Positions 34,782 through 49,865 of a DNA stretch of 60,008 nucleotides are shown here, piece by piece. Position numbers and translations under genes: made by a program. Origin of the DNA: Planctomycetota bacterium (GTDB lineage: Bacteria > Planctomycetota > Planctomycetia > Planctomycetales > Planctomycetaceae); contig JAURQH010000026.1 in NCBI GenBank assembly GCA_030836185.1, forward strand, positions 1 to 60,008, given 5' to 3'. Each line of letters starts with the position of its first letter. The stretch's first letter is position 1. The notes under the pieces are model-generated. The model did no database searches, was not told where the DNA came from, and saw only the letters and a program-made list of their open reading frames with translations.

Positions 34782-34882
34782 GTCTTCTAACCTAGCAAAG
34801 ACAATCCTGTCTTGCATTAACGAATCAGAGCGGCGAACATGTGGGCTTAAATACTTTCACAACACACTGCGGACTTCCACAC

Positions 34883-37800
34883 ATGTACCGTCCAGTCAAA
34901 TTGCTCGCCTTGCTACTACTCGGTCTGCCCTGTCTGTTACAGGCCGATGATTTCATTCCTCGTCGTCAGGATAAACCTCCCGGCCCGGCTCTCTCACCGA
35001 TGGATGCCATCGCCAAGATGGACGTGCCGGAAGGGTTCTCGGTTGAGTTAGTGGCAGCAGAACCACAAATTTTCAATCCGGTCGGTATGGCCATCGATGA
35101 AAAAGGCCGATTCTGGATCACCGAATCCTTTGAGTATCCTCGAAAAGAGCCCGGTCCGGGACGTGATCGAATCAAGGTTCTCGAAGATACCACGGGAGAC
35201 GGACGAGTCGATAAAGTGACCGTCTTTGCTGAGGGGCTCAATATCCCGTCGGGTATCGCGGTTGGTTATGGCGGTGTATGGGTTGCCAATGCTCCCGATA
35301 TTCTCTTCATGCAGGATCTCGATGGTGATTTGAAAGTCGACAAAATCGAGAAAGTAGTCACCGGTTTCGGACGCACCGACACTCACGAACTACCAAACTC
35401 GTTGACTTGGGGACCAGATGGCTGGCTCTACGGCCTCAACGGAGTTTTCAACTATTGCGATGTCAAATACACGCCCAACAATCCGAACTTCGATGAGAAA
35501 CATTCCGGTTGGAAGTTTACCTGTGCGCTGTTTCGCATTCATCCTCGCACGCGTGAGTTTGAACTATTCGCCGAAGGGACCAGTAACCCGTGGGGAGTCG
35601 CCTGGAACAAGGATGGTGAAGCGTTTCTGTCTGCGTGTGTGATTGACCATCTCTGGCACTTGACGCAATCCGGTTACTATCATCGACAAGGGGGGCCGTA
35701 TCCGCCCCATACCTGGAAACTGGAATCCATCGTCAAACATAAACATCAAAAAGCCGCCTATTGTGGAATTCATTACTACGACTCAGATGCCTACCCCGAA
35801 GAGTATCGCGAAAAACTTTACATGGGGAACATCCACGGCAATTGCCTGAATGCTGATGCGCTTGAGCGTGATGGTTCGACCTATTTTGGAACGCCGCGTC
35901 CTGACTTTCTGACGGCCAATGATGTCTGGTTCATGCCTGTGGTTCAGAAGACAGGGCCAGACGGCTGCATTTATGTGCTGGACTGGTACGACCGCTATCA
36001 CTGTTATCAGGATGCGAATCGTGACCCGGAAGGCGTTGACCGCGGGCATGGGCGTCTCTATCGGATTAGATATAAAGAATCGCCCCATACGCCGGCGGAT
36101 TTTAATCTTGCTGCTGAAACCGATGATCAACTGATCGAACGACTCTCACAGCACAATGATTTTATCCGCTGGACGGCACAGCGATTGTTGTCTGAACGTA
36201 GCATCCAAGAGTCGCGACAAAAACTGAAAGCCATTGCCACCAATAATTCAGCCGATCAAAAGACACGTCTGCATGCGTTCTGGTCGGTAATTGGAATGAA
36301 ACCCGATCCAGAAGATTTGTTGATCTATGATGATTTTATGGAACAGTTGATGTCTCAACCCGATCCAACATTGCGTGCGTGGGCAATTCGGGCTGCGGGA
36401 CACCAGTTTCTGCATTCAAAATCACACAATGGATTCAATGAATCCGAGGAAGGCAATATTTTCGAATTAGTTGACACTGCCATTCATGACGAATCGGAAG
36501 ACGTACGATTGCAGGGAGTGATTCTTGCCGGTGCGCACGCCAAGAAAATGCAGCCACACGGTTCTTATCCCGTTTACACAGAGTTGTTCGCAGAAGCTCT
36601 TAAACTTTCCTCAGAAGATGAAGTGCTGCCGAAAATTGTTTGGCGGAATTTGCTTTACTATCTGGAAAGCTTTCCGAATCAAGCCGCTGACTTTGCCACG
36701 ATCAATGAGATCGCCGCCGGGTCGGGGGGACGAGAACTCATTCCTCGGTTGGTTGCGTGGATGCTCGATCACACGGACTACAAGGCGACCAACGTCGCCA
36801 AAGTGATCTCCTACCATTCACATTCTACAGGCGGAAATCCGCAAACGGCTGCCATCTGTCTCTCCATGATCAGTCAGCGTGTTCAAAATCGAACTCTCGC
36901 CGGAGAGAAGCTGAAGCAAACGAAAGAAGCACTCGGGACGGTTGTATCGAGTATCGCAGCGGGAGACAAAGACTCAGCCCCGTTTTTCTCAGCGGCCATG
37001 TTAGGCGCAAGCTGGGGAGATCCCGTTGCTCTCAAGGAAGCGGAAAAAATCCTGGCAAATAGCAAATCGCCGGAAGCACAACGATTGCAGGCATTGAATG
37101 CCTTGGTGGCCGCCGGTGAGGAAATGCACGTTCTGATTGCCATGGATCAAATCTTGGCGGATAAGAAATCTAATCCGGCTCCCTTTCGGGGCAAGATGAT
37201 TAGCGCATTAGGACGACTTCGCAACGAGCATGTCGCATCTTTATTGGTCCTCAACTATTACGAGTTGGAACCGGAACTCAAGCCGCGTGTGATCGATATT
37301 CTCACACAGAGAAAAGCCTGGAGCATCAGTCTGCTCAACGCCATTGCCGAAGAAGAGATCCCGACGAGCGCACTCAATTTGAATCAAGTGAAAAGAATGC
37401 TGGCAACCGGTGACAAAGAACTCACCAAACTGGTCGGGCAACATTGGGGGCAAATTCGCGAAGGACGCGATCCTAAACGAGATCAGGTGATTGGAGAAAT
37501 GAAACAGTTGATTCGTTCTTCGGAAGGAGACCCGTTTGCGGGCGAACTTGTCTTCAACAAAGTCTGCGGACAATGTCATAAGATTTACGGCAAGGGACAG
37601 GAAGTCGGTCCCGAAATTACACTCAACGGTCGCAATTCGTTCGAACAACTTTTGTCGAACGTCTTCGATCCTTCACTGGTGATCGGAGCTTCTTATCAGT
37701 CGTACACTGTCGTGACGGACGAAGGCCGTGTGCTCAACGGCTTGCTGGTTGAAGACACGGAGTCCAAAATTACGCTGAAAATCCAGGGCGGGAAGCGGGA

Positions 37801-38425
37801 AACGATTCCCCGCGCAGAGATTGAAATCCTGAAGAAAAGCCCCGTTTCCTTGATGCCCGAAAAGCTGGAAGAACAAATCAAACCACAGGAACTGGTTGAC
37901 TTGTTCGCATTTATCACGCTCGACAAACATCCTTCCGATAGAACGGCTCGGCAGTTGCCGGGTGTGAAAGAAGTGGTCCCTCGCATTGCGACCAACCCGC
38001 AGCAGTTTGCGGAAGTGATCGGCGAAGTGGCTCCCGGATTTACGACCAAAAAGTCGGGCGTGGGAGATGTTGCATTACAAACCGGACACATGAATCGCTC
38101 GACAGTGGTAAGAACCCATCCCGTGAATCAAAACGAGCCGTGTGTCTTGTCCGGTTCGTTTGAAATTCCCTCAGGACAAAAAACGTGGCTGCTCGTTGAT
38201 GTGGCCCATCACCCGGAAGGAGACTGGCGGCTGGAAGTCAAAGGGAATGGCAAACGGCTGTTGTCGGAAGATGTGGGTGGTCCAGCGTCGCGCGGTTGGC
38301 AATCATTCCGCATCGACCTGTCACAGTTTGCCGGTCAAAAAGTGAAGCTGGAACTCAAAAATCACGCGACCGGCTGGCGGAATGAATTCGGCTATTGGGG
38401 CGGTGCGCGGGTCGTGAGTGAATGA
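34883..38425 (+). CDS. PVC-type heme-binding CxxCH protein (membrane-bound dehydrogenase-like)
   Basis: A 1180-residue exported protein with a signal peptide (KLLALLLLGLPCLLQA). An N-terminal beta-propeller of the glucose-dehydrogenase/NHL kind covers about residues 30-400 (PVGMAIDEKGRFWITESFEYP, LPNSLTWGPDGWLYGLNGVF, DGCIYVLDWYDRYHC). Armadillo/HEAT-like helices span roughly 415-860. A c-type heme domain starts with CGQCH near residue 895 and contains VGPEIT and DPSLVIG. A C-terminal beta-sandwich (about 1030-1180) ends WRNEFGYWGGARVV. Such multidomain cytochromes are abundant in planctomycetes and probably oxidise carbohydrates or alcohols at the outer face. The start at 34883 places the signal peptide at the N-terminus. 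Confidence 0.88.
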   Translation: MYRPVKLLALLLLGLPCLLQADDFIPRRQDKPPGPALSPMDAIAKMDVPEGFSVELVAAEPQIFNPVGMAIDEKGRFWITESFEYPRKEPGPGRDRIKVLEDTTGDGRVDKVTVFAEGLNIPSGIAVGYGGVWVANAPDILFMQDLDGDLKVDKIEKVVTGFGRTDTHELPNSLTWGPDGWLYGLNGVFNYCDVKYTPNNPNFDEKHSGWKFTCALFRIHPRTREFELFAEGTSNPWGVAWNKDGEAFLSACVIDHLWHLTQSGYYHRQGGPYPPHTWKLESIVKHKHQKAAYCGIHYYDSDAYPEEYREKLYMGNIHGNCLNADALERDGSTYFGTPRPDFLTANDVWFMPVVQKTGPDGCIYVLDWYDRYHCYQDANRDPEGVDRGHGRLYRIRYKESPHTPADFNLAAETDDQLIERLSQHNDFIRWTAQRLLSERSIQESRQKLKAIATNNSADQKTRLHAFWSVIGMKPDPEDLLIYDDFMEQLMSQPDPTLRAWAIRAAGHQFLHSKSHNGFNESEEGNIFELVDTAIHDESEDVRLQGVILAGAHAKKMQPHGSYPVYTELFAEALKLSSEDEVLPKIVWRNLLYYLESFPNQAADFATINEIAAGSGGRELIPRLVAWMLDHTDYKATNVAKVISYHSHSTGGNPQTAAICLSMISQRVQNRTLAGEKLKQTKEALGTVVSSIAAGDKDSAPFFSAAMLGASWGDPVALKEAEKILANSKSPEAQRLQALNALVAAGEEMHVLIAMDQILADKKSNPAPFRGKMISALGRLRNEHVASLLVLNYYELEPELKPRVIDILTQRKAWSISLLNAIAEEEIPTSALNLNQVKRMLATGDKELTKLVGQHWGQIREGRDPKRDQVIGEMKQLIRSSEGDPFAGELVFNKVCGQCHKIYGKGQEVGPEITLNGRNSFEQLLSNVFDPSLVIGASYQSYTVVTDEGRVLNGLLVEDTESKITLKIQGGKRETIPRAEIEILKKSPVSLMPEKLEEQIKPQELVDLFAFITLDKHPSDRTARQLPGVKEVVPRIATNPQQFAEVIGEVAPGFTTKKSGVGDVALQTGHMNRSTVVRTHPVNQNEPCVLSGSFEIPSGQKTWLLVDVAHHPEGDWRLEVKGNGKRLLSEDVGGPASRGWQSFRIDLSQFAGQKVKLELKNHATGWRNEFGYWGGARVVSE

Positions 38426-40208: not shown

Positions 40209-41687
40209 TTAACTCAGAACACCTTTCACCACTTTTCCATGAACGTCGGTCAGTCGATAATCGCGACCTTGAAAACGATATGTTAAGCGTTCGTGATTCA
40301 TGCCCAACAGGTGCATGATGGTGGCGTTCAAATCGTGGACGTGAACACCACGAGTTTCGCGGTCAACGATATTGTAAGAGAAATCATCGGTCTCGCCGTA
40401 ACTGGTTCCCCCTTTGATGCCCCCCCCCGCCATCCAGATCGAGAAACATCGTGGGTGATGGTCTCGTCCGTAGTTCTTGCTATTCCCTTGTTTGTAGACA
40501 GTACGGCCGAACTCGCCTCCCCAGATAACGAGCGTATCTTTGAGTAAACCACGCTGTTTGAGATCCTGAATGAGAGCCGACGATCCTTGATCGACTTCTT
40601 TGGCAATTTTTGGATGACGAGTTGGTAGGCCGCCATGATGATCCCACCCACGATGATAAATCTGCACGAATCGCACACCACGCTCGCTCAATCGCCTTGC
40701 CAGTAAACAGTTGGCGGCGTGAGTGCCGGGAACTTTCGCATCTTCACCGTATAGATCAAATGTGCTTTCTGGTTCGTCCGAGGTGTCAGTCAACTCAGGA
40801 ACCGACATTTGCATTCGATACGACATCTCGTAAGCCGCGATACGAGTTTGTATCTCTGGATCACCCACTTCTGTTTGGCGAAGTTCGTTCAATTGTGAAA
40901 GTGAATCGAGGAGTTGTCGTTTGTCGTCGAGTGACGCATTCGTGGGGTCATTCAAATACAACACCGGGTCACCAACCGAACGGAGTTTGACTCCTTGATG
41001 ATTGGACGGCAGAAAGCCGCTTCCCCACAATCGCGAATAGAGTGGTTGTGCTTGAGTATCAGAGTTTTTATCGAGTAGGACGGCATAAGCGGGCAGATTT
41101 TCGCTTTCACTCCCCAAGCCGTAACTGACCCACGATCCGAGACTCGGGCGTCCGGGTTGTTGATGTCCCGTTTGGAAAAAAGTGATCGCCGGATCGTGGT
41201 TAATCGCTTCGGTGTGCATTGATTTGACGATGCAAATATCGTCGGCAATTTTCCCATGATGAGGCATCAAATCGCTAATCCACTGTCCCGATTCTCCATG
41301 TTGCTGGAACGGCATAAAAGATTTCGCCACTGCAAAAGACTTCTGCCCGGCCGTCATTCCGGTGAGTCTTTGTCCCATACGGACCGAGGCGGGCAACTCT
41401 TGTCCGTCCAGCTTTTCTAATGATGGCTTATAATCGAAAGTGTCAATGTGAGACGGTGCCCCGGACTGACACAGGTAGATTACCCGTTTCACTTTAGGAG
41501 CGAAATGTGTCGGGCCGGTTAAGCCGGGATCGTAACCGGGGCCGTTACTGGTCGCCAACGACTTCTGTTGCCCGTTAGCCTCTTTAGCAAGCAGTGATGC
41601 GAGTGCTGCCACGCCAATCCCGGTTGCAGACTTTCCAAAAAAGTAACGACGATTGATGGCCAGGTCGTGGTCGGTGATCGGCTTCAT
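40209..41687 (-). CDS. DUF1501 family exported protein (PSD1 partner)
   Basis: A 492-residue DUF1501 protein, similar in plan to the one at 8281 but with a different leader: NRRYFFGKSATGIGVAALASLLA, Tat-like. Landmarks are KVKRVIYLCQSGAPSHIDTFDYKP, WVSYGLGSESENLPAYAVLLD, YHRGWDHHGGLPTRHPKIA, WGGEFGRTVYKQGNSKNYGRDHHPRCF and LLGMNHERLTYRFQGRDYRLTDVHG. It follows a PSD1 gene with a 138-bp gap that contains a REP-like pair. This is the standard planctomycete pairing, which implies that the two exported proteins act together, although the reaction is unknown. Confidence 0.9.
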   Translation of the reverse strand: MKPITDHDLAINRRYFFGKSATGIGVAALASLLAKEANGQQKSLATSNGPGYDPGLTGPTHFAPKVKRVIYLCQSGAPSHIDTFDYKPSLEKLDGQELPASVRMGQRLTGMTAGQKSFAVAKSFMPFQQHGESGQWISDLMPHHGKIADDICIVKSMHTEAINHDPAITFFQTGHQQPGRPSLGSWVSYGLGSESENLPAYAVLLDKNSDTQAQPLYSRLWGSGFLPSNHQGVKLRSVGDPVLYLNDPTNASLDDKRQLLDSLSQLNELRQTEVGDPEIQTRIAAYEMSYRMQMSVPELTDTSDEPESTFDLYGEDAKVPGTHAANCLLARRLSERGVRFVQIYHRGWDHHGGLPTRHPKIAKEVDQGSSALIQDLKQRGLLKDTLVIWGGEFGRTVYKQGNSKNYGRDHHPRCFSIWMAGGGIKGGTSYGETDDFSYNIVDRETRGVHVHDLNATIMHLLGMNHERLTYRFQGRDYRLTDVHGKVVKGVLS

Positions 41688-41719
41688 GGTTAGGTCTCGG
41701 AATCTGTTTGATAAATACT

Positions 41720-41790
41720 GTAGGGTCCGCTGTGCAGACCGAATTCATGAACGACTGTTTTCTCATAATGGTCCGCACAGCGGACCCTAC
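41720..41790. repeat. Inverted pair of GTAG-headed REP-like hairpins (family B, BIME-like)
   Basis: The first unit at 41720-41740 reads GTAG then GGTCCGC-TGT-GCAGACC. The second, at 41770-41790 on the other strand, reads GTAG then GGTCCGC-TGT-GCGGACC. They differ at one base, and the second is a perfect 7-bp hairpin. The two units face each other across a 29-bp spacer, as in bacterial interspersed mosaic elements. The pair lies in the PSD1-DUF1501 gap, where it could form a large stem in the mRNA. Confidence 0.75.
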
Positions 41791-41825
41791 GTCTGGCTTG
41801 CCGGATAGTGTTAGATTCAAAAATA

Positions 41826-44800
41826 TTAATTCAACGTCATAAACTCACTCAAGTTCATCAATAGACGAGCAATACTCGTCAGGGCGGCGTGTTGAGATAA
41901 TTCGAGTGATTCATCACGCGGAGAGTCTCCGACAGACAACAAAGCGGACGCTTCATCAGGATGCTGTTGATATTGCAGTAGTCGTTTTTGATAAGTCTCT
42001 TTGAGAAGTCTCAGTTCTTGCTTGGTCGGTTGACGAGAGGTTACAAGTTCGAATCCATGATTGATCTGCGTCTCAACCGAGTTGCCACCCTCATTCAGCA
42101 TTCGTTCGGCCAGTTTGCGTGCCGCTTCGACAAATTGGGGGTCGTGCAACATCACAAAGGCTTGAAGGGGTGTATTGGTGCTTGAACGTCGAACGACACA
42201 GAATTCTCGTTCTGGGGCGTCAAATGTTGCCATGGAGGGAGGAGGGACCGTTCGTTTCCAGAATGTGTACAGGCTGCGTCGATAAAGGTTCTCACCGGTA
42301 TCTTGTTTATAAGTTCGTGAATAGCCGGGGCGATTGTTGATTTCCTGCCAAAGCCCCTTGGGGTGATAAGGAAAGACACTTGGACCACCCATTTTCTCGA
42401 CGAGCAATCCACTGGCGAGCAAAGCCGAATCACGAACGACCTCGGCATCGAGCCGACGGCGAGGACCGCGAGAGAGTAGTCGATTTTCAGGGTCGTTGGC
42501 TTGTTGTTCGGGTGTGACGACCGACGACTGTCGATAAGTACCCGACGTCACAATCAATTTATGCAGAGCCTTAATATCCCAATTCATTTCAACAAACTCG
42601 ACCGCCAGCCAATCGAGCAGCTCGGGATGACTGGGCCAGTCTCCTTGAGAGCCAAAGTCCTCACTCGTTTTGACAATTCCCACTCCAAACAATCGTTGCC
42701 AGATGCGGTTGACGAATACTCTCGATGTCAGAGGGTGATCGGGTTTCACCAGCCACTCGGCCAAGGCAAGACGATTATTTGGCACGCCTTCTGGTAGTGC
42801 CGGCAATGCCGCCGGGACACCCGAATCGACAACATCCCGTTTTTGATCGTACTCTCCACGATACAAAACATGTGTCGTTCGTGGTTTTGTCTGTTCTGCC
42901 ATGATCATCGTGGATGGAATGGAATTGATGATATTTTGACGTTCTTTTTCGACCATCGTCACAGTTTGCGCTGCCTGTCGGATTTCGGGAGAGGCAAACT
43001 TTCGCAACAGCCAATCTTCGACTTGTTGTTTTTGTTGTGGATTCCGTTTTTCTTGAGGTGTCTCGATAATCTTCTGAATTGCCAGTGTCAGCGGGGCGGC
43101 TTCTCCCTTCATGACCGCTAAGCGGAATCGGGCAATCTGATGCGACAGACCAAATTGAAAACTCATTTTGACTCGAATAATCTTCTGATCGGCGTTTTTG
43201 ATCGGTTCGACCATGATGAAGACAGCCGTGCGACTGTCTGTGATTGTATTGCCATCCACTGCCCAGCCAGATCGATCCACTTTTCCGTCAATAGCTTTGC
43301 CGATCTCATAATTCTTCTGCGAGTAGTCGGCTTCCGCAGCAGAGATGACCACCTGTTCAAACTGGTCCGGCTTTGCGAGAGAGGTTGTTTCCACGATGAA
43401 TTCGGTCATGACAAAGTTCCCGTTAGAACCTCGACCCGTTCCGCCGTTGACGGTTGAGGGATCTTTGATTGCTTCCAAGCGGATGGCACTGATCGCATTA
43501 TCATCTGTTTTAAGATCAACAATATATTCTTCGGTGACCGGGTTTTTTCCGCTGGCCAACACCGATTGATCATCCTGGACCGTCAACGTCGCGCCGCCCG
43601 CTGAATTCATCTCTGTCGGAACAATGACTTGCCAGTTCGCCTGTTTGCCAGCCTTGACGAGGGATTCCCACTTCGCAAACGGCAACCCTTCCGCTCCGGC
43701 GACCTGCTTTAACTGCTGTTTTGCGCGGGCCAACCGGGTGTCGATTTCGTGCAATCGAGCATCTTGTAAAGGAGATTCGATTTTACGTCTTGGATCAACA
43801 CCATTGAGCCCTCGTTCGGGTACACGATTAAAGAACGCAGAGAACTCATAAAACTCTTTTTGAGAAATCGGATCGTACTTATGATCGTGACAACGGCTAC
43901 ACAACATCGTCATTCCCATCCAGACGGTAGAAGTGGTGACAACCCTGTCAACGACATACTCGGTTCGGTATTCTTCATCAATGACACCACCTTCAATCGT
44001 GATCGGATGATTGCGATGAAATCCGGTTGCCAGACGAGTTAAGTCATTTGCATCAGGTAACAGGTCACCGGCGATTTGCTGACGAGTAAATTCGTCGAAC
44101 GGTATATTTTGATTGAAAGCCCAAATCACCCAATCCCGCCAGACCCATTGCTCGCGTTCGAGATCGTATTGATAACCGTTGGTGTCGGCGTAACGTGCCG
44201 CATCGAGCCAAGGCTTCGCCATGTGTTCGCCATAGCGATCTGAAGACAACAAGCGGTCAACCAGTTTCTCATAGGCATTGTTTGATTGATCTGCCAGGAA
44301 TGTTTCGATCTCAGCGGGTGTCGGTGGCAAACCGGTCAAGTCGAGAGATACGCGACGAATCAGAGTGCGCGGGTCAGCTTGCGGGGATGGTTTCAGCCCT
44401 TGCTGTTCGAGTTTCTTCAAAACAAAGGAATCGATTGGATTCCGTACGTGCTCTTGATGCTCAACAATGGGTGCTTCTACTTGTTTCGGTGAGATGAACG
44501 CCCAGTGGTCTTCGTACTCCGCACCGTTTTTGATCCACGTTTCCAGTAATTGAATCTGCTTTTCTGTGAGTGGTGCTTTGCCTGAATCGGGTGGCGGCAT
44601 CTGCGTGAATTCGTCTGTGCTGCGAATTCGCTTGAGCAATTCGCTTGCTGTCGGCTTACCGGGAACAATGGCAGGCGTCTCGCTATTCGCAATGGCAATG
44701 TCACGTTTGTCGAGCCGCAAGTCGGCTTCACGTGATGCCGAGTCGGGGCCGTGACAGGTATAGCATCGATCCGAAAGAATCGCTCGAATGTCACGATTGA

Positions 44801-44891
44801 ATTGTGGTTCATCCTCTGCGAGCAGGTCGCAGACAGGCAATAACAACACGGCGAATATGGTGAGCTGGTAGCGCGAGATCATAACGGGCAT
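41826..44891 (-). CDS. PSD1 protein: PSCyt1 cytochrome, DUF1549 and DUF1553
   Basis: A 1021-residue exported protein with a signal peptide (QLTIFAVLLLPVCDLLAED). PSCyt1 (about residues 30-120) carries the heme motif CYTCH in SDRCYTCHGPDSASREADLRLD. DUF1549 (about 150-360) has PIDSFVLKKLEQQGLKPSP and RRVSLDLTGLPPTPAEI. A central beta-rich region follows, and DUF1553 (about 690-960) has HPLTSRVFVNRIWQRLFG and GPRRRLDAEVVRDSALLASG. These c-type cytochromes are thought to take part in extracellular or periplasmic oxidation of complex substrates, but no substrate is known for this one. It leads the operon with the DUF1501 gene. Confidence 0.93.
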   Translation of the reverse strand: MPVMISRYQLTIFAVLLLPVCDLLAEDEPQFNRDIRAILSDRCYTCHGPDSASREADLRLDKRDIAIANSETPAIVPGKPTASELLKRIRSTDEFTQMPPPDSGKAPLTEKQIQLLETWIKNGAEYEDHWAFISPKQVEAPIVEHQEHVRNPIDSFVLKKLEQQGLKPSPQADPRTLIRRVSLDLTGLPPTPAEIETFLADQSNNAYEKLVDRLLSSDRYGEHMAKPWLDAARYADTNGYQYDLEREQWVWRDWVIWAFNQNIPFDEFTRQQIAGDLLPDANDLTRLATGFHRNHPITIEGGVIDEEYRTEYVVDRVVTTSTVWMGMTMLCSRCHDHKYDPISQKEFYEFSAFFNRVPERGLNGVDPRRKIESPLQDARLHEIDTRLARAKQQLKQVAGAEGLPFAKWESLVKAGKQANWQVIVPTEMNSAGGATLTVQDDQSVLASGKNPVTEEYIVDLKTDDNAISAIRLEAIKDPSTVNGGTGRGSNGNFVMTEFIVETTSLAKPDQFEQVVISAAEADYSQKNYEIGKAIDGKVDRSGWAVDGNTITDSRTAVFIMVEPIKNADQKIIRVKMSFQFGLSHQIARFRLAVMKGEAAPLTLAIQKIIETPQEKRNPQQKQQVEDWLLRKFASPEIRQAAQTVTMVEKERQNIINSIPSTMIMAEQTKPRTTHVLYRGEYDQKRDVVDSGVPAALPALPEGVPNNRLALAEWLVKPDHPLTSRVFVNRIWQRLFGVGIVKTSEDFGSQGDWPSHPELLDWLAVEFVEMNWDIKALHKLIVTSGTYRQSSVVTPEQQANDPENRLLSRGPRRRLDAEVVRDSALLASGLLVEKMGGPSVFPYHPKGLWQEINNRPGYSRTYKQDTGENLYRRSLYTFWKRTVPPPSMATFDAPEREFCVVRRSSTNTPLQAFVMLHDPQFVEAARKLAERMLNEGGNSVETQINHGFELVTSRQPTKQELRLLKETYQKRLLQYQQHPDEASALLSVGDSPRDESLELSQHAALTSIARLLMNLSEFMTLN

Positions 44892-45123
44892 CTTCAGGTG
44901 GGAGAGTTAAACGTGAAATTCTATTCTAGCTGAGTCACTAAAGATCATGAACCACAAATCTCACGTTATTTGTTCAATCATCACACAGAGCGTCTCAACC
45001 AGAGTGACAAATGTGTCCCTTTGAATCATGAATCGATGAGGTAATTGATTCTTGACCCACTTATACTAATTAGACGAGTATGAAAGGGCCTCGAATCAAT
45101 ATGACCTTCAGAGGAATCGGTTG

Positions 45124-47436
45124 ATGAACCATTCTCGTCGTGATTTTACGAAGTCTTTATTAGCCAGTTCACTTGTCGTTTCGACTGGCTCTGCCTCCCG
45201 ATTGTTAGCGTGGGCTTCGGAGACGGCTCCTACTTCGGTTTCCGTCGAATCGATTCGACCACAAGAAGACCTCCTCCAATACATTCAGCGACTGAGAGGC
45301 AAATTTGACATCCAACTTTTTCGTCAAATTCTGGGAGCTGCCAATGAGTTCAAAGAAGGTGATCAGACGATTGGCGTCTCTGCGAAAAATGAACAGTCAC
45401 GACAAAATGCACGTACATTAATTGCTCGAACACGCATCCTAGATATCGACGCACATCCAGTTCTGAATGATGATCTGTATCAATTGATTGAAGCTCGCAA
45501 TCTTGATCCACAGGCAAAGCTTTCGAACAGTATGAGTCTTGGGGAACTGAGAGAGTACTTGTTGTCTGAAAACGAACAATCGATCAAGACAATTACAAAG
45601 AGTCTTTCAAGTGATGTGATTTCTTGCCTTGTCAAATTGATGACCAACGAAGATTTGATCACTGTGGGAGCGAAGGTCTTTAACTCTCTTCCCGGAAGTA
45701 AGATCGGAGAGAAAGGTTATTTGGGAGCAAGATTACAGCCTAACTCTCCCACCGACAATCTCGACGATATTCGCTGGCAGGTCTTTGACGGCTGGTCCTA
45801 TGGTGTCGGTGATGTTTTACTGGGAACAAACCCGGTTTCCAGTGATCCTGGTTCGGTCAAGGCCATTGAACTGGCTCTCAAAGATCTGTTGGTCACCTTC
45901 GATATCGAGGATCTCCTGCCGCATTGCGTCCTCTCACATATCGATGTACAGGCGGAAGTCGAGCATTCTGCCCCTCAAAGTACGGCACTCTGGTTTCAGA
46001 GTATTGCAGGTACTGACACCGCAAATCAGACCTTTGATGTGAGTGTTGAAAAGATGAGTCGCTATGCACTTCAACGCCCCGGCAAATATGGTTTGTATTT
46101 TGAAACGGGACAAGGCGCCGATTTCACCAACGGGCATAGTCACGGATTCGATATGGTGATGCATGAGTCGCGAAAGTATGGTTTCGCACGCGCACTTTCC
46201 AGAAATGTGGCGGAGGCCCAACAGGCCGCCGGGAATAACGTCGCACCGTGGGTTCATCTGAATGATGTTGCAGGTTTCATTGGCCCGGAAGTCTTTCGAA
46301 CAAGAGAACAACTCGTGCGTTGTTGTCTCGAAGATATTGTGATGGGGAAACTACATGGCCTCACAATTGGTCTCGATGTCTGCTCAACACTTCATATGGA
46401 TGTCACTCTGGATGATCTCGATTGGTGCCTCGATCAAATCATGCCCGCCAATCCAGCCTATCTGATGGCGTTACCGACGAAAATTGACCCTATGCTGGGT
46501 TATCTGACGACGGGATTCCAAGACCATGTTCGGCTTCGTGAAAAATTTGGCTATCGAGTGAATGATGCCATGTGGACCTTCTTTCAGGATTTGGGAATCT
46601 TTGATCAAGACGGTCATCCGACAGAGCATTTTGGGGACCCCTTGTGGGTTTATCTGCAATATCGCCACCGTTTGGGTGACACACGTTCGGACCAGCAAAT
46701 TTTGTTGGAGGGCCGAACTCAACTGAAACAAGTTCAAGACCGCGGCGTTTTCATTGCAGAAGGATATGGAAGCACGCCTTCAGAACTGGAACCTTCTCTC
46801 AAAAATAATATCCAGCAGATTTATCAAGATGCCAAATCCAGCATCTGGGCCGAACTTCCCGGCAGTTTCATTTCTGAAGTTCCCAATTCAGTTCCCATCA
46901 CCACACAATCGAGTGATCGTGAAGATTACATTTTGCATCCCAGCACGGGAGAGAAATTGTCTTCAACCGCGGAGACACAGATCCTCAATCTTCGTCGACA
47001 ACACCAGGAACAGTTCGATGTTCAGATTGTCATCTCAGACGGTTTGAATTCTCTATCCATTACTGATGAGAATCATCTGATACCATTTCTCGATTCGGTT
47101 CGTTCGGAGCTCGCCACCGCAGGATATCGTACTGCACCCGAAAATTTGGTCATCACATCTGGACGAGTCAGAGCCGGGTACCGTATTGGCGAACTCTTAT
47201 TTGGAAATATCTCGGGACGCCGTTGCGTTCTGCATGTGATTGGCGAACGCCCCGGTACCGGTCATCATACGTTTTCCGTCTATCTCACAGCTCCTACGGG
47301 CACGGATTGGGGAGAAGCTGGGCAAGTTGACCACAACATTACAAAAGTCGTCGCTGGAATTGCCAGCACAGCTCTTCTTCCCAAAAAAGGAGCCATTGAA
47401 GCGGTCCATATTTTGAAAAACATGAGCGAATCGTAG
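45124..47436 (+). CDS. Single-chain ethanolamine ammonia-lyase (EutB-EutC fusion) with Tat leader
   Basis: A 770-residue protein. Residues 1-32 form a classic Tat leader: SRRDFTK, then SLLASSLVVSTGSASRLLAWA. Residues about 45-510 match EutB, the catalytic TIM barrel of the adenosylcobalamin-dependent lyase that splits ethanolamine into acetaldehyde and ammonia. Active-site counterparts are Arg and Gln in GARLQPN (about 203 and 205), Asn in GTNPVSS, Glu in YFETGQG (about 327), and Asp in LDVCSTLHMD. Residues about 610-770 match EutC (ITSGRVRAGYRIGELLF, VIGERPGTGHHTFSVYLT). Normally these are two cytosolic chains. AGAGGA lies 8 bp before ATG 45124. No other eut, microcompartment or reactivase gene is near. 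Confidence 0.88.
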   Translation: MNHSRRDFTKSLLASSLVVSTGSASRLLAWASETAPTSVSVESIRPQEDLLQYIQRLRGKFDIQLFRQILGAANEFKEGDQTIGVSAKNEQSRQNARTLIARTRILDIDAHPVLNDDLYQLIEARNLDPQAKLSNSMSLGELREYLLSENEQSIKTITKSLSSDVISCLVKLMTNEDLITVGAKVFNSLPGSKIGEKGYLGARLQPNSPTDNLDDIRWQVFDGWSYGVGDVLLGTNPVSSDPGSVKAIELALKDLLVTFDIEDLLPHCVLSHIDVQAEVEHSAPQSTALWFQSIAGTDTANQTFDVSVEKMSRYALQRPGKYGLYFETGQGADFTNGHSHGFDMVMHESRKYGFARALSRNVAEAQQAAGNNVAPWVHLNDVAGFIGPEVFRTREQLVRCCLEDIVMGKLHGLTIGLDVCSTLHMDVTLDDLDWCLDQIMPANPAYLMALPTKIDPMLGYLTTGFQDHVRLREKFGYRVNDAMWTFFQDLGIFDQDGHPTEHFGDPLWVYLQYRHRLGDTRSDQQILLEGRTQLKQVQDRGVFIAEGYGSTPSELEPSLKNNIQQIYQDAKSSIWAELPGSFISEVPNSVPITTQSSDREDYILHPSTGEKLSSTAETQILNLRRQHQEQFDVQIVISDGLNSLSITDENHLIPFLDSVRSELATAGYRTAPENLVITSGRVRAGYRIGELLFGNISGRRCVLHVIGERPGTGHHTFSVYLTAPTGTDWGEAGQVDHNITKVVAGIASTALLPKKGAIEAVHILKNMSES

Positions 47437-48945: not shown

Positions 48946-49865
48946 TTACCCTAATTCCTCGTCCTGAAATGTCTCTTCACCGAGATCATCATCCATGACA
49001 GAAGACTCGTCTGATGAGATATTTGTGGAATCGGGCATCAGAGTTAATAACGCATCTGCATACTGGCGGGAAATCGCCAGATGTTTGATCACCGTATTTT
49101 TAGAGCTTTGGGCTTCACCTTTGTCATTAAGCCACGTACTTACCTGTTCCAATTCTAACCAAGTGCTTCCATCACATTTTGGACAGCGATGAATTTTGGC
49201 GTGAAGACAGACATCTTCTGGAGACATCAACGCATTTTCGAATAAGGGAGAATAGTTCTCATCTTCGAGAGACTGACGAAGTTGATCGATCTCCTCGGGG
49301 ACTCGAAATGTCACAGAGCAATCCATTTCTTCACTCCATTGATTGCAGGGTTCGCGGAACGGTGTGTCTGCCGAAAACGCGATCAAAATTGCTGGTATCA
49401 GAACGATGAATGCTTCAATCACCCATATTGTGTAGAGAATACCGCCAGTCGGGGTTGCTCCACCAATTTCCCACATGCCGTTGGCGGCAATCAATTGCAT
49501 GAAAGAGAACATCGCCGTGGTGTCGAAAAAAAAGAGGCCTTGCCCGAACGCAGTGCGTGCAGCAAGAAACAAATACCACACCCACGCCAGATACAGTGAT
49601 GCGAAGCCGATGATGAAGCCGGCAAAGGCGTTAGTCAGTCGCCCCCGAACTTTTCCCAACGACAGCCCCATTACCGCACACCCACCACACCCTGCTCCAA
49701 AGATTCCCGTTGCGATCACGGTGAAATAGATGAATGGGTTGTAGTAATTGACGAGCGCATAAATGATCGAGAGTACCGCTCCACCGAGCGTTCCTACAAT
49801 CATGGTGATCATCAGTCCGAAAATGGCGCACCGCCTGAAGGCTTGTAGTAGAGTTCTTCGCGCAT
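48946..49865 (-). CDS. Multi-pass membrane protein, gene apparently frameshifted near its start
   Basis: ATG 49865, with AGGAAAGG just upstream, opens a 17-codon frame MREELYYKPSGGAPFSD that stops at TGA 49814-49812. The main frame, shifted by one base, begins at ATG 49812 (TGATG overlap) and runs 288 residues. It has about four transmembrane helices (IVGTLGGAVLSIIYALVNYY, FIYFTVIATGIFGAGCGGCAVMG) and a cytoplasmic tail with RCPKCDGSTW. The PSGGAP segment just before the first helix is what I would expect as the contiguous N-terminus in related planctomycete proteins, so a single-base deletion is likely. A coupled leader peptide is the alternative. Function unknown. Confidence 0.65.

Follow-up and report, generated by a model that had tools for sequence, protein, structure and literature searches.

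A deep single-chain EutB-EutC lineage with conserved export-type leaders: candidate exported adenosylcobalamin-dependent ammonia-lyases in bacteria

Because their cofactor is sensitive to oxygen and light and needs reactivation, adenosylcobalamin (AdoCbl) radical enzymes are regarded as cytosolic. The diol and glycerol dehydratases are cytosolic, multi-subunit enzymes. Reductive dehalogenases of the RdhA/PceA type are unrelated to ethanolamine lyase in fold and chemistry and involve no adenosyl radical, and we know of no precedent for a Tat-exported AdoCbl radical enzyme. The closest described relative of the gene analyzed here is the two-chain ethanolamine ammonia-lyase EutBC of E. coli (structures 3abo, 5ysr, and 7xrm). 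A Tat route for a cobalamin protein is described in PMC6095959, according to which RdhA/PceA, a cobalamin enzyme, reaches the periplasm pre-folded by means of a Tat leader. In that account it resembles the route proposed below in the export of a folded cobalamin enzyme and differs from it in its Fe-S clusters. Among the matches listed in a title and abstract search of the open literature, with subscription papers mostly outside its reach, we found no description of a fused or exported ethanolamine ammonia-lyase. In PMC3542024, Myxococcus xanthus DK 1622 is named in the organism list, and the words "fusion" and "fused" are absent from the main text.

The window (the whole planctomycete DNA stretch analyzed, 60,008 nt) contains one unbroken open reading frame on the plus strand, from the ATG at 45124 to the stop codon ending at 47436, that encodes 770 amino acids. 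The initial annotation described it as a EutB-EutC fusion in a single frame of 770 residues, and its coordinates, strand, and length proved exact. Both Pfam domains lie in this frame: EutB (PF06751, 454.5 bits against a cut-off of 25, residues 66-501) and EutC (PF05985, 104.1 bits against 25.8, residues 563-768). The protein also exceeds the cut-off of the NCBIfam EutB subfamily NF011649 (587 vs. 554 bits), while its EutC half stays below that of the EutC equivalog NF003971 (81.8 vs. 230 bits). The features of the locus are as follows.

45110..45115, plus strand: ribosome-binding-site-like AGAGGA, 8 nt upstream of the ATG (sequence)
45124..47436, plus strand: single-chain EutB-EutC with export leader, 770 aa, stop codon counted in (open reading frame and profile matches)
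45124..45216, plus strand: predicted Tat leader, residues 1-31, with A-W-A ahead of residue 32 (sequence, leader rule)
45133..45153, plus strand: twin-arginine motif SRRDFTK, residues 4-10 (sequence)
45319..46626, plus strand: EutB barrel, residues 66-501 (Pfam; structure match 3abo_A)
46201..46242, plus strand: insertion of about 14 residues relative to E. coli EutB, approximately residues 360-373 (alignment)
46810..47427, plus strand: EutC domain, residues 563-768, with R681 and GERPG 707-711, which correspond to E. coli EutC R206 and 227-231 (Pfam; structure match 7xrm_B)
41826..44891, minus strand: divergent upstream neighbour with PSCyt1/PSCyt2/PSD1 domains, outside the system (Pfam scan)
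48946..49812, minus strand: convergent downstream neighbour without a Pfam family, outside the system (Pfam scan)

The gene stands alone, flanked by divergent and convergent genes. The absence of a eut operon, noted in the initial annotation, is borne out: a Pfam scan of the ten neighbouring open reading frames found no eut gene, hence no linked EutA or permease, and a profile search gave zero EutA matches in the genome carrying the gene. Elsewhere in the window, 34841-38425 encodes a DUF7133/HEAT protein, and at 40209-44891 a DUF1501 gene adjoins the PSCyt1-PSCyt2-PSD1 gene, an arrangement often seen in planctomycetes.

An AlphaFold2 model built on 70 aligned sequences (the query and 69 of the 80 loci described below) has a mean pLDDT of 89.7, and runs of at least three residues with pLDDT below 50 are confined to residues 1-3 and 13-34, all in the leader. 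Both subunit folds of ethanolamine ammonia-lyase are present in this predicted model. The best PDB match of the barrel half is E. coli EutB (3abo_A; Z 41.7, rmsd 3.1, 438 residues), and that of the C-terminal part is EutC (7xrm_B; Z 24.5, 229 residues). Over the structural alignments, identity to the two-chain enzymes is 30-32% in EutB and 21-22% in EutC. Diol dehydratase is the next structural match of the model (Z ~20); the diol and glycerol dehydratases share the AdoCbl radical barrel fold (Z 19-20) at 11-13% identity. In contrast to two-chain EutBC, the planctomycete protein is one chain, carries an export leader, and is encoded outside any eut operon.

Relatives were sought with patterns taken from the mature protein, the leader being excluded; of the 94 detected, 80 were retained. 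Their record titles place them in Planctomycetota, Bacteroidota, Myxococcota, Pseudomonadota, Acidobacteriota, Verrucomicrobiota, Gemmatimonadota, and Thermodesulfobacteriota and leave four without a phylum. Several of these phyla are represented by no more than one or two metagenome bins, which may be mislabelled. Thus, the close relatives L041 and L049 are titled Desulfobacterales and Deltaproteobacteria, respectively, and fall in different phyla of the taxonomy table, so that the organism labels of metagenome bins are unsafe. In a survey of 392 planctomycete genomes, EutB occurs in 30, being of the two-chain type in 12 (652-741 bits) and fused in 18 (432-470 bits, the window's genome included); 16 of the fused cases are of the window's kind, and two genomes (G061 and G081) have a different, leaderless fusion. 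Among 395 Bacteroidota genomes, EutB is found in 13 and is fused in two, one of them the centre genome of the sample. Among 195 Myxococcota genomes, EutB is found in 95, and 68 places have fused-type scores (400-470 bits); 20 of these places were fetched, and four more were known otherwise (L056, L104, L060, and L073).

In the phylogenetic tree (built without L077, L105, and L076), two-chain EutB, the EutA-linked fusion, and the lineage of the window form three separate branches with SH-aLRT support of 98, 99, and 100. The last of these, clade III, is a deep separate clade (SH-aLRT 100) with a very long stem of 5.3 changes per column, and by its position in the tree the window's gene is a member of this single-chain lineage. 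The leaderless planctomycete fusion, clade II, likewise has EutB followed by EutC in one chain. It differs from clade III in the absence of a leader, the presence of EutA in the genome (3/3), and the replacement of E. coli EutB D362 by alanine (3/3), and its substrate or mechanism may also be different. Two clade II loci (L086:462-4106 and L087:3228-6872) lie directly beside EutA, and in the third (L088:3665-5938) EutA is on another contig. The next gene in line in L086 (4119-5747) encodes a membrane protein that is permease-like by eye. One planctomycete genome, G400, holds both a leadered fusion (L026) and the leaderless EutA-linked fusion L086.

Clade III also includes a plasmid copy from Sinorhizobium meliloti, which has a TRRDLL leader and lies on pSymA in the record examined; 16 records have it at 99% identity or more, among 25 matching records (megablast), and GR4 and SM11 are among the strains with the gene on a plasmid. 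We considered whether work on S. meliloti Rm1021 (PMC6759758) had overlooked this enzyme and rejected the idea, as pSymA of strain 1021, the only replicon of that strain considered, was among the sequences searched and is absent from the 25 megablast records.

The reading that we favour, with a probability of roughly 0.6, is that clade III proteins are AdoCbl lyases that would be exported by Tat and act outside the inner membrane on ethanolamine or a similar amino alcohol. Such a protein would belong to the ethanolamine ammonia-lyase superfamily as an adenosylcobalamin-dependent ammonia-lyase, and its single-chain form would allow joint folding of the barrel and the EutC half, which holds the cobalamin. 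Folding and cofactor loading would take place in the cytoplasm and be followed by Tat export to the periplasmic side of the inner membrane, where many of the Bacteroidota and myxobacterial proteins would probably be anchored as lipoproteins. The substrate, either ethanolamine (released, for example, from phosphatidylethanolamine or glycerophosphoethanolamine) or a vicinal amino alcohol close to it, would be converted to ammonia and acetaldehyde, and the aldehyde would thus arise outside the cytoplasm. There AdoCbl, which is sensitive to oxygen and light, would meet both, and ATP-driven reactivation is not expected.

Conservation of the active site was assessed in an alignment comprising 14 two-chain, three clade II, and 101 clade III sequences (118 in all). 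The residues that we take to hold ethanolamine in E. coli EutB, namely R160, Q162, N193, E287, and D362, correspond to R203, Q205, N236, E327, and D418 of the 770-residue chain. In the clade III rows with a letter at these positions they are invariant (99/99, 99/99, 100/100, 101/101, and 101/101, respectively), and they are intact in 20 extra myxobacterial members and in the leaderless members of the clade. Two other EutB positions vary: M392 is isoleucine in 11 of the 101 rows and Y404 is isoleucine in one. In EutC, R206 and GERPG (E. coli numbering) are retained in 100/100 rows. Judged from these residues, the clade III enzyme looks catalytically complete in EutB, with the core EutC motifs kept.

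The same alignment bears on the identity of the substrate. It is unlikely, although several observations point that way, that clade III is an exported AdoCbl lyase whose substrate is some other small amino alcohol, or a derivative of a phospholipid head group, in place of ethanolamine itself. On both sides of E. coli EutB V326, clade III has fixed substitutions (T325 to D and V327 to A, each in 101/101 rows), and the insertion of about 14 residues, which in the alignment directly precedes invariant columns of the conserved segment around N380-D381-V382, lies immediately ahead of the V326 segment. No linked ethanolamine genes were seen among the scanned neighbours. Against such a shift, all five residues that hold ethanolamine in E. 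coli are unchanged.

Further changes lie in the EutC half. At 33 EutC positions where at least 85% of the 13 two-chain sequences compared agree, clade III has the same majority letter in 18, including R206, V207, GERPG, and Y241, and differs in 15, including R136 (H), S170 (N), N261 (G), and the lost L232; E. coli EutC R141 is replaced by glutamate in 101/101 rows. The claim that the active-site motifs of both halves are kept thus stands for the five EutB residues and for EutC R206 and GERPG. Loss of cobalamin contacts in EutC, which the initial annotation had named as counting against its proposal, is not seen in this core, but 15 of the 33 conserved positions, some of which may touch cobalamin, have changed. 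The cofactor or substrate pocket of clade III may have shifted, as far as the alignment can indicate.

The second question is export. The leader of the 770-residue chain, MNHSRRDFTKSLLASSLVVSTGSASRLLAWA followed by SE, has the RR pair, a moderately hydrophobic core, and A-W-A before residue 32. The consensus Tat motif is S/T-R-R-x-F-L-K, so that SRRDFTK, called perfect in the initial annotation, is a Tat-type motif with T in place of the consensus L, and the wording was slightly overstated. We scored leaders with our own motif and hydropathy rule, which requires R[RK]x[FLIVMWY] or RRxA and, after it, a hydrophobic stretch. Among 118 clade III members, the rule finds a Tat-like leader in 99 (87 with RR and 12 with RK); these counts leave out L027 and L077 (both cut by the contig), L105 (partial), L083 (which duplicates L082), and all three loci of clade II, and count each of three sequences with identical rows from two collections twice (L007/L103, L019/L099, and L079/L093). 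Shuffling the same N-terminal residues in 500 rounds gave 8.0 leaders on average and never more than 17, and the observed number is therefore not due to chance. By set, leaders occur in 73/78 relatives from the pattern search, 13/15 genes of the planctomycete survey besides that of the window (14/16 with it), and 9/20 fetched myxobacterial places. In an alignment of the relatives, R5 is nearly invariant and R6 is the majority letter. A lipobox pattern is present in 21 leadered members (10 Bacteroidota, 10 Myxococcota, and one planctomycete), and four clade III members (L040, L041, L049, and L074) have signals that are Sec-like by eye.

The remaining 15 of the 118 members are leaderless, 13 being myxobacterial and two coming from planctomycete assemblies less than 90% complete. 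They form one group in the tree (SH-aLRT 87, or 53 in a tree with only four of them). Two fused-type places occur in 14 surveyed Myxococcota genomes, and both copies were read in seven. Overall, seven of the eight two-copy myxobacterial genomes read (G413, G879, G916, G919, G939, G944, and G955) have one leadered and one leaderless copy; in the eighth, an Anaeromyxobacter bin (L037 and L048), both copies are leadered. The pairs of leadered (lipobox-type) and leaderless genes are L158/L159, L160/L161, L156/L157, L153/L152, L154/L155, L166/L167, and L056/L104. Given the 99 leaders and this division between myxobacterial copies, export of clade III looks conserved, and the comparison of leaders among orthologues proposed in the initial annotation comes out in its favour. 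Orthologues without any leader, which it had taken as contrary evidence, do exist, but they belong to one group and seven of them stand beside a leadered copy. Branch support at the base of clade III is 70 and 0, and export may have been either gained or lost within it. From the leaders, the lineage is predicted to be mostly, not wholly, exported, by a route that can change.

These data also bear on a cytoplasmic role, in which the leader would be unused or would pin the enzyme to the inner membrane face while the work is done in the cytoplasm. The leaderless group, with its five substrate residues kept, can evidently work inside, and AdoCbl chemistry favours a reducing compartment. Nevertheless, we regard this scenario as improbable: the leader is kept in most members, is Sec-like in four, has a lipobox in 21, and is paired with a leaderless copy in most two-copy myxobacterial genomes. 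The suggestion that the leader may only tether the enzyme is in particular hard to square with the Sec-like and lipobox signals. The exported lyase that we prefer has a difficulty of its own, as the four Sec-like and 15 leaderless members fit poorly with cofactor loading before export; Sec-like members such as L041, L049, and L074 would have to load the cofactor outside the cytoplasm.

Substitution rates indicate that the mature parts are under strong purifying selection (dN/dS ~0.03-0.15 in 12 of 13 pairs, those with a computable dS). In 10 of 11 pairs with a leader value, dN is higher in the leader than in the mature part, as expected of signal peptides. A non-catalytic periplasmic protein derived from the lyase that binds or scavenges cobamides would account for the kept EutC core motifs, the export-type leader, and the lack of a reactivase, but it is very improbable, because a mere binder would have no need of the substrate residues that are invariant across a very divergent family and because of the strong purifying selection.

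For the predicted exported lyase, host genes were searched in 35 genomes: besides that of the window, a widely spread selection representing 34 of the 80 loci. TatC is found in 34 of them (the genome without a match is G397), with one match in the genome of the window, and in 11 of 14 control genomes. A corrinoid adenosyltransferase (PF01923 or PF02572) is likewise found in 34 host genomes, G393 having neither kind, and in 12 of 14 controls. Both functions are common in bacteria, and their presence is permissive only. As a candidate line of evidence, the adenosyltransferase was rejected: PF01923 is found in 16/16 clade III planctomycete genomes vs. 259/376 others, but also in 28/28 genomes of family f1, so that kinship confounds the comparison.

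For the reactivase EutA, we drew our own line for a strong match at above 100 bits. Strong EutA occurs in two of the 35 clade III hosts, G400, where it adjoins the clade II copy, and G417, in two of 23 genomes with two-chain-type EutB from the same surveys, and in all three clade II fusion genomes. Over the curated cut-off, EutA is matched in 21/35 and 10/28 genomes, mostly by partial matches of 25-35 bits, which we take to be other actin-fold proteins. In G417 (Ensifer sp. IC4062), contig C100 has two EutA-family hits (384 and 356 bits) and is not the contig of the EutBC fusion. The initial annotation was right that no reactivase gene lies here, but its lack is not distinctive: 21 of the 23 two-chain-type genomes also do without strong EutA, and we rejected EutA absence as a mark of clade III.

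Gene neighbourhoods gave no conserved partner: the best-spread neighbour cluster is limited to 8 of 83 loci. A list of neighbours that run in the same direction within 120 bp, from which 14 loci (mostly near-copies) are left out, has 37 entries, and among the 36 plus one of L082 that were Pfam-scanned no family occurs in more than two. A search for the B12 riboswitch box string GCCACTG found it in none of 76 scannable upstream stretches, nor in the window. With neither a conserved neighbour nor a B12 box, nothing independent ties clade III to ethanolamine or B12.

Clade III is thus a real and conserved lineage, surprising in its predicted location, and its function is likewise a prediction. 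It occurs in workable organisms, including S. meliloti (on plasmids), myxobacteria, Algoriphagus, and Echinicola, and the myxobacterial genomes with a leadered and a leaderless copy provide a built-in comparison. The broader proposal of a widespread AdoCbl radical enzyme family outside the cytoplasm, in which a Tat-delivered, cofactor-loaded lyase would make acetaldehyde beyond the inner membrane as an alternative to the microcompartment, seems to us evenly balanced. If a conserved exported lineage is confirmed, AdoCbl radical chemistry would run in another compartment, raising the question of how the cofactor gets loaded and renewed outside the cytoplasm, a puzzle that the Sec-like members sharpen. 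It would also mean an overlooked recycling route for a common bacterial phospholipid head group.
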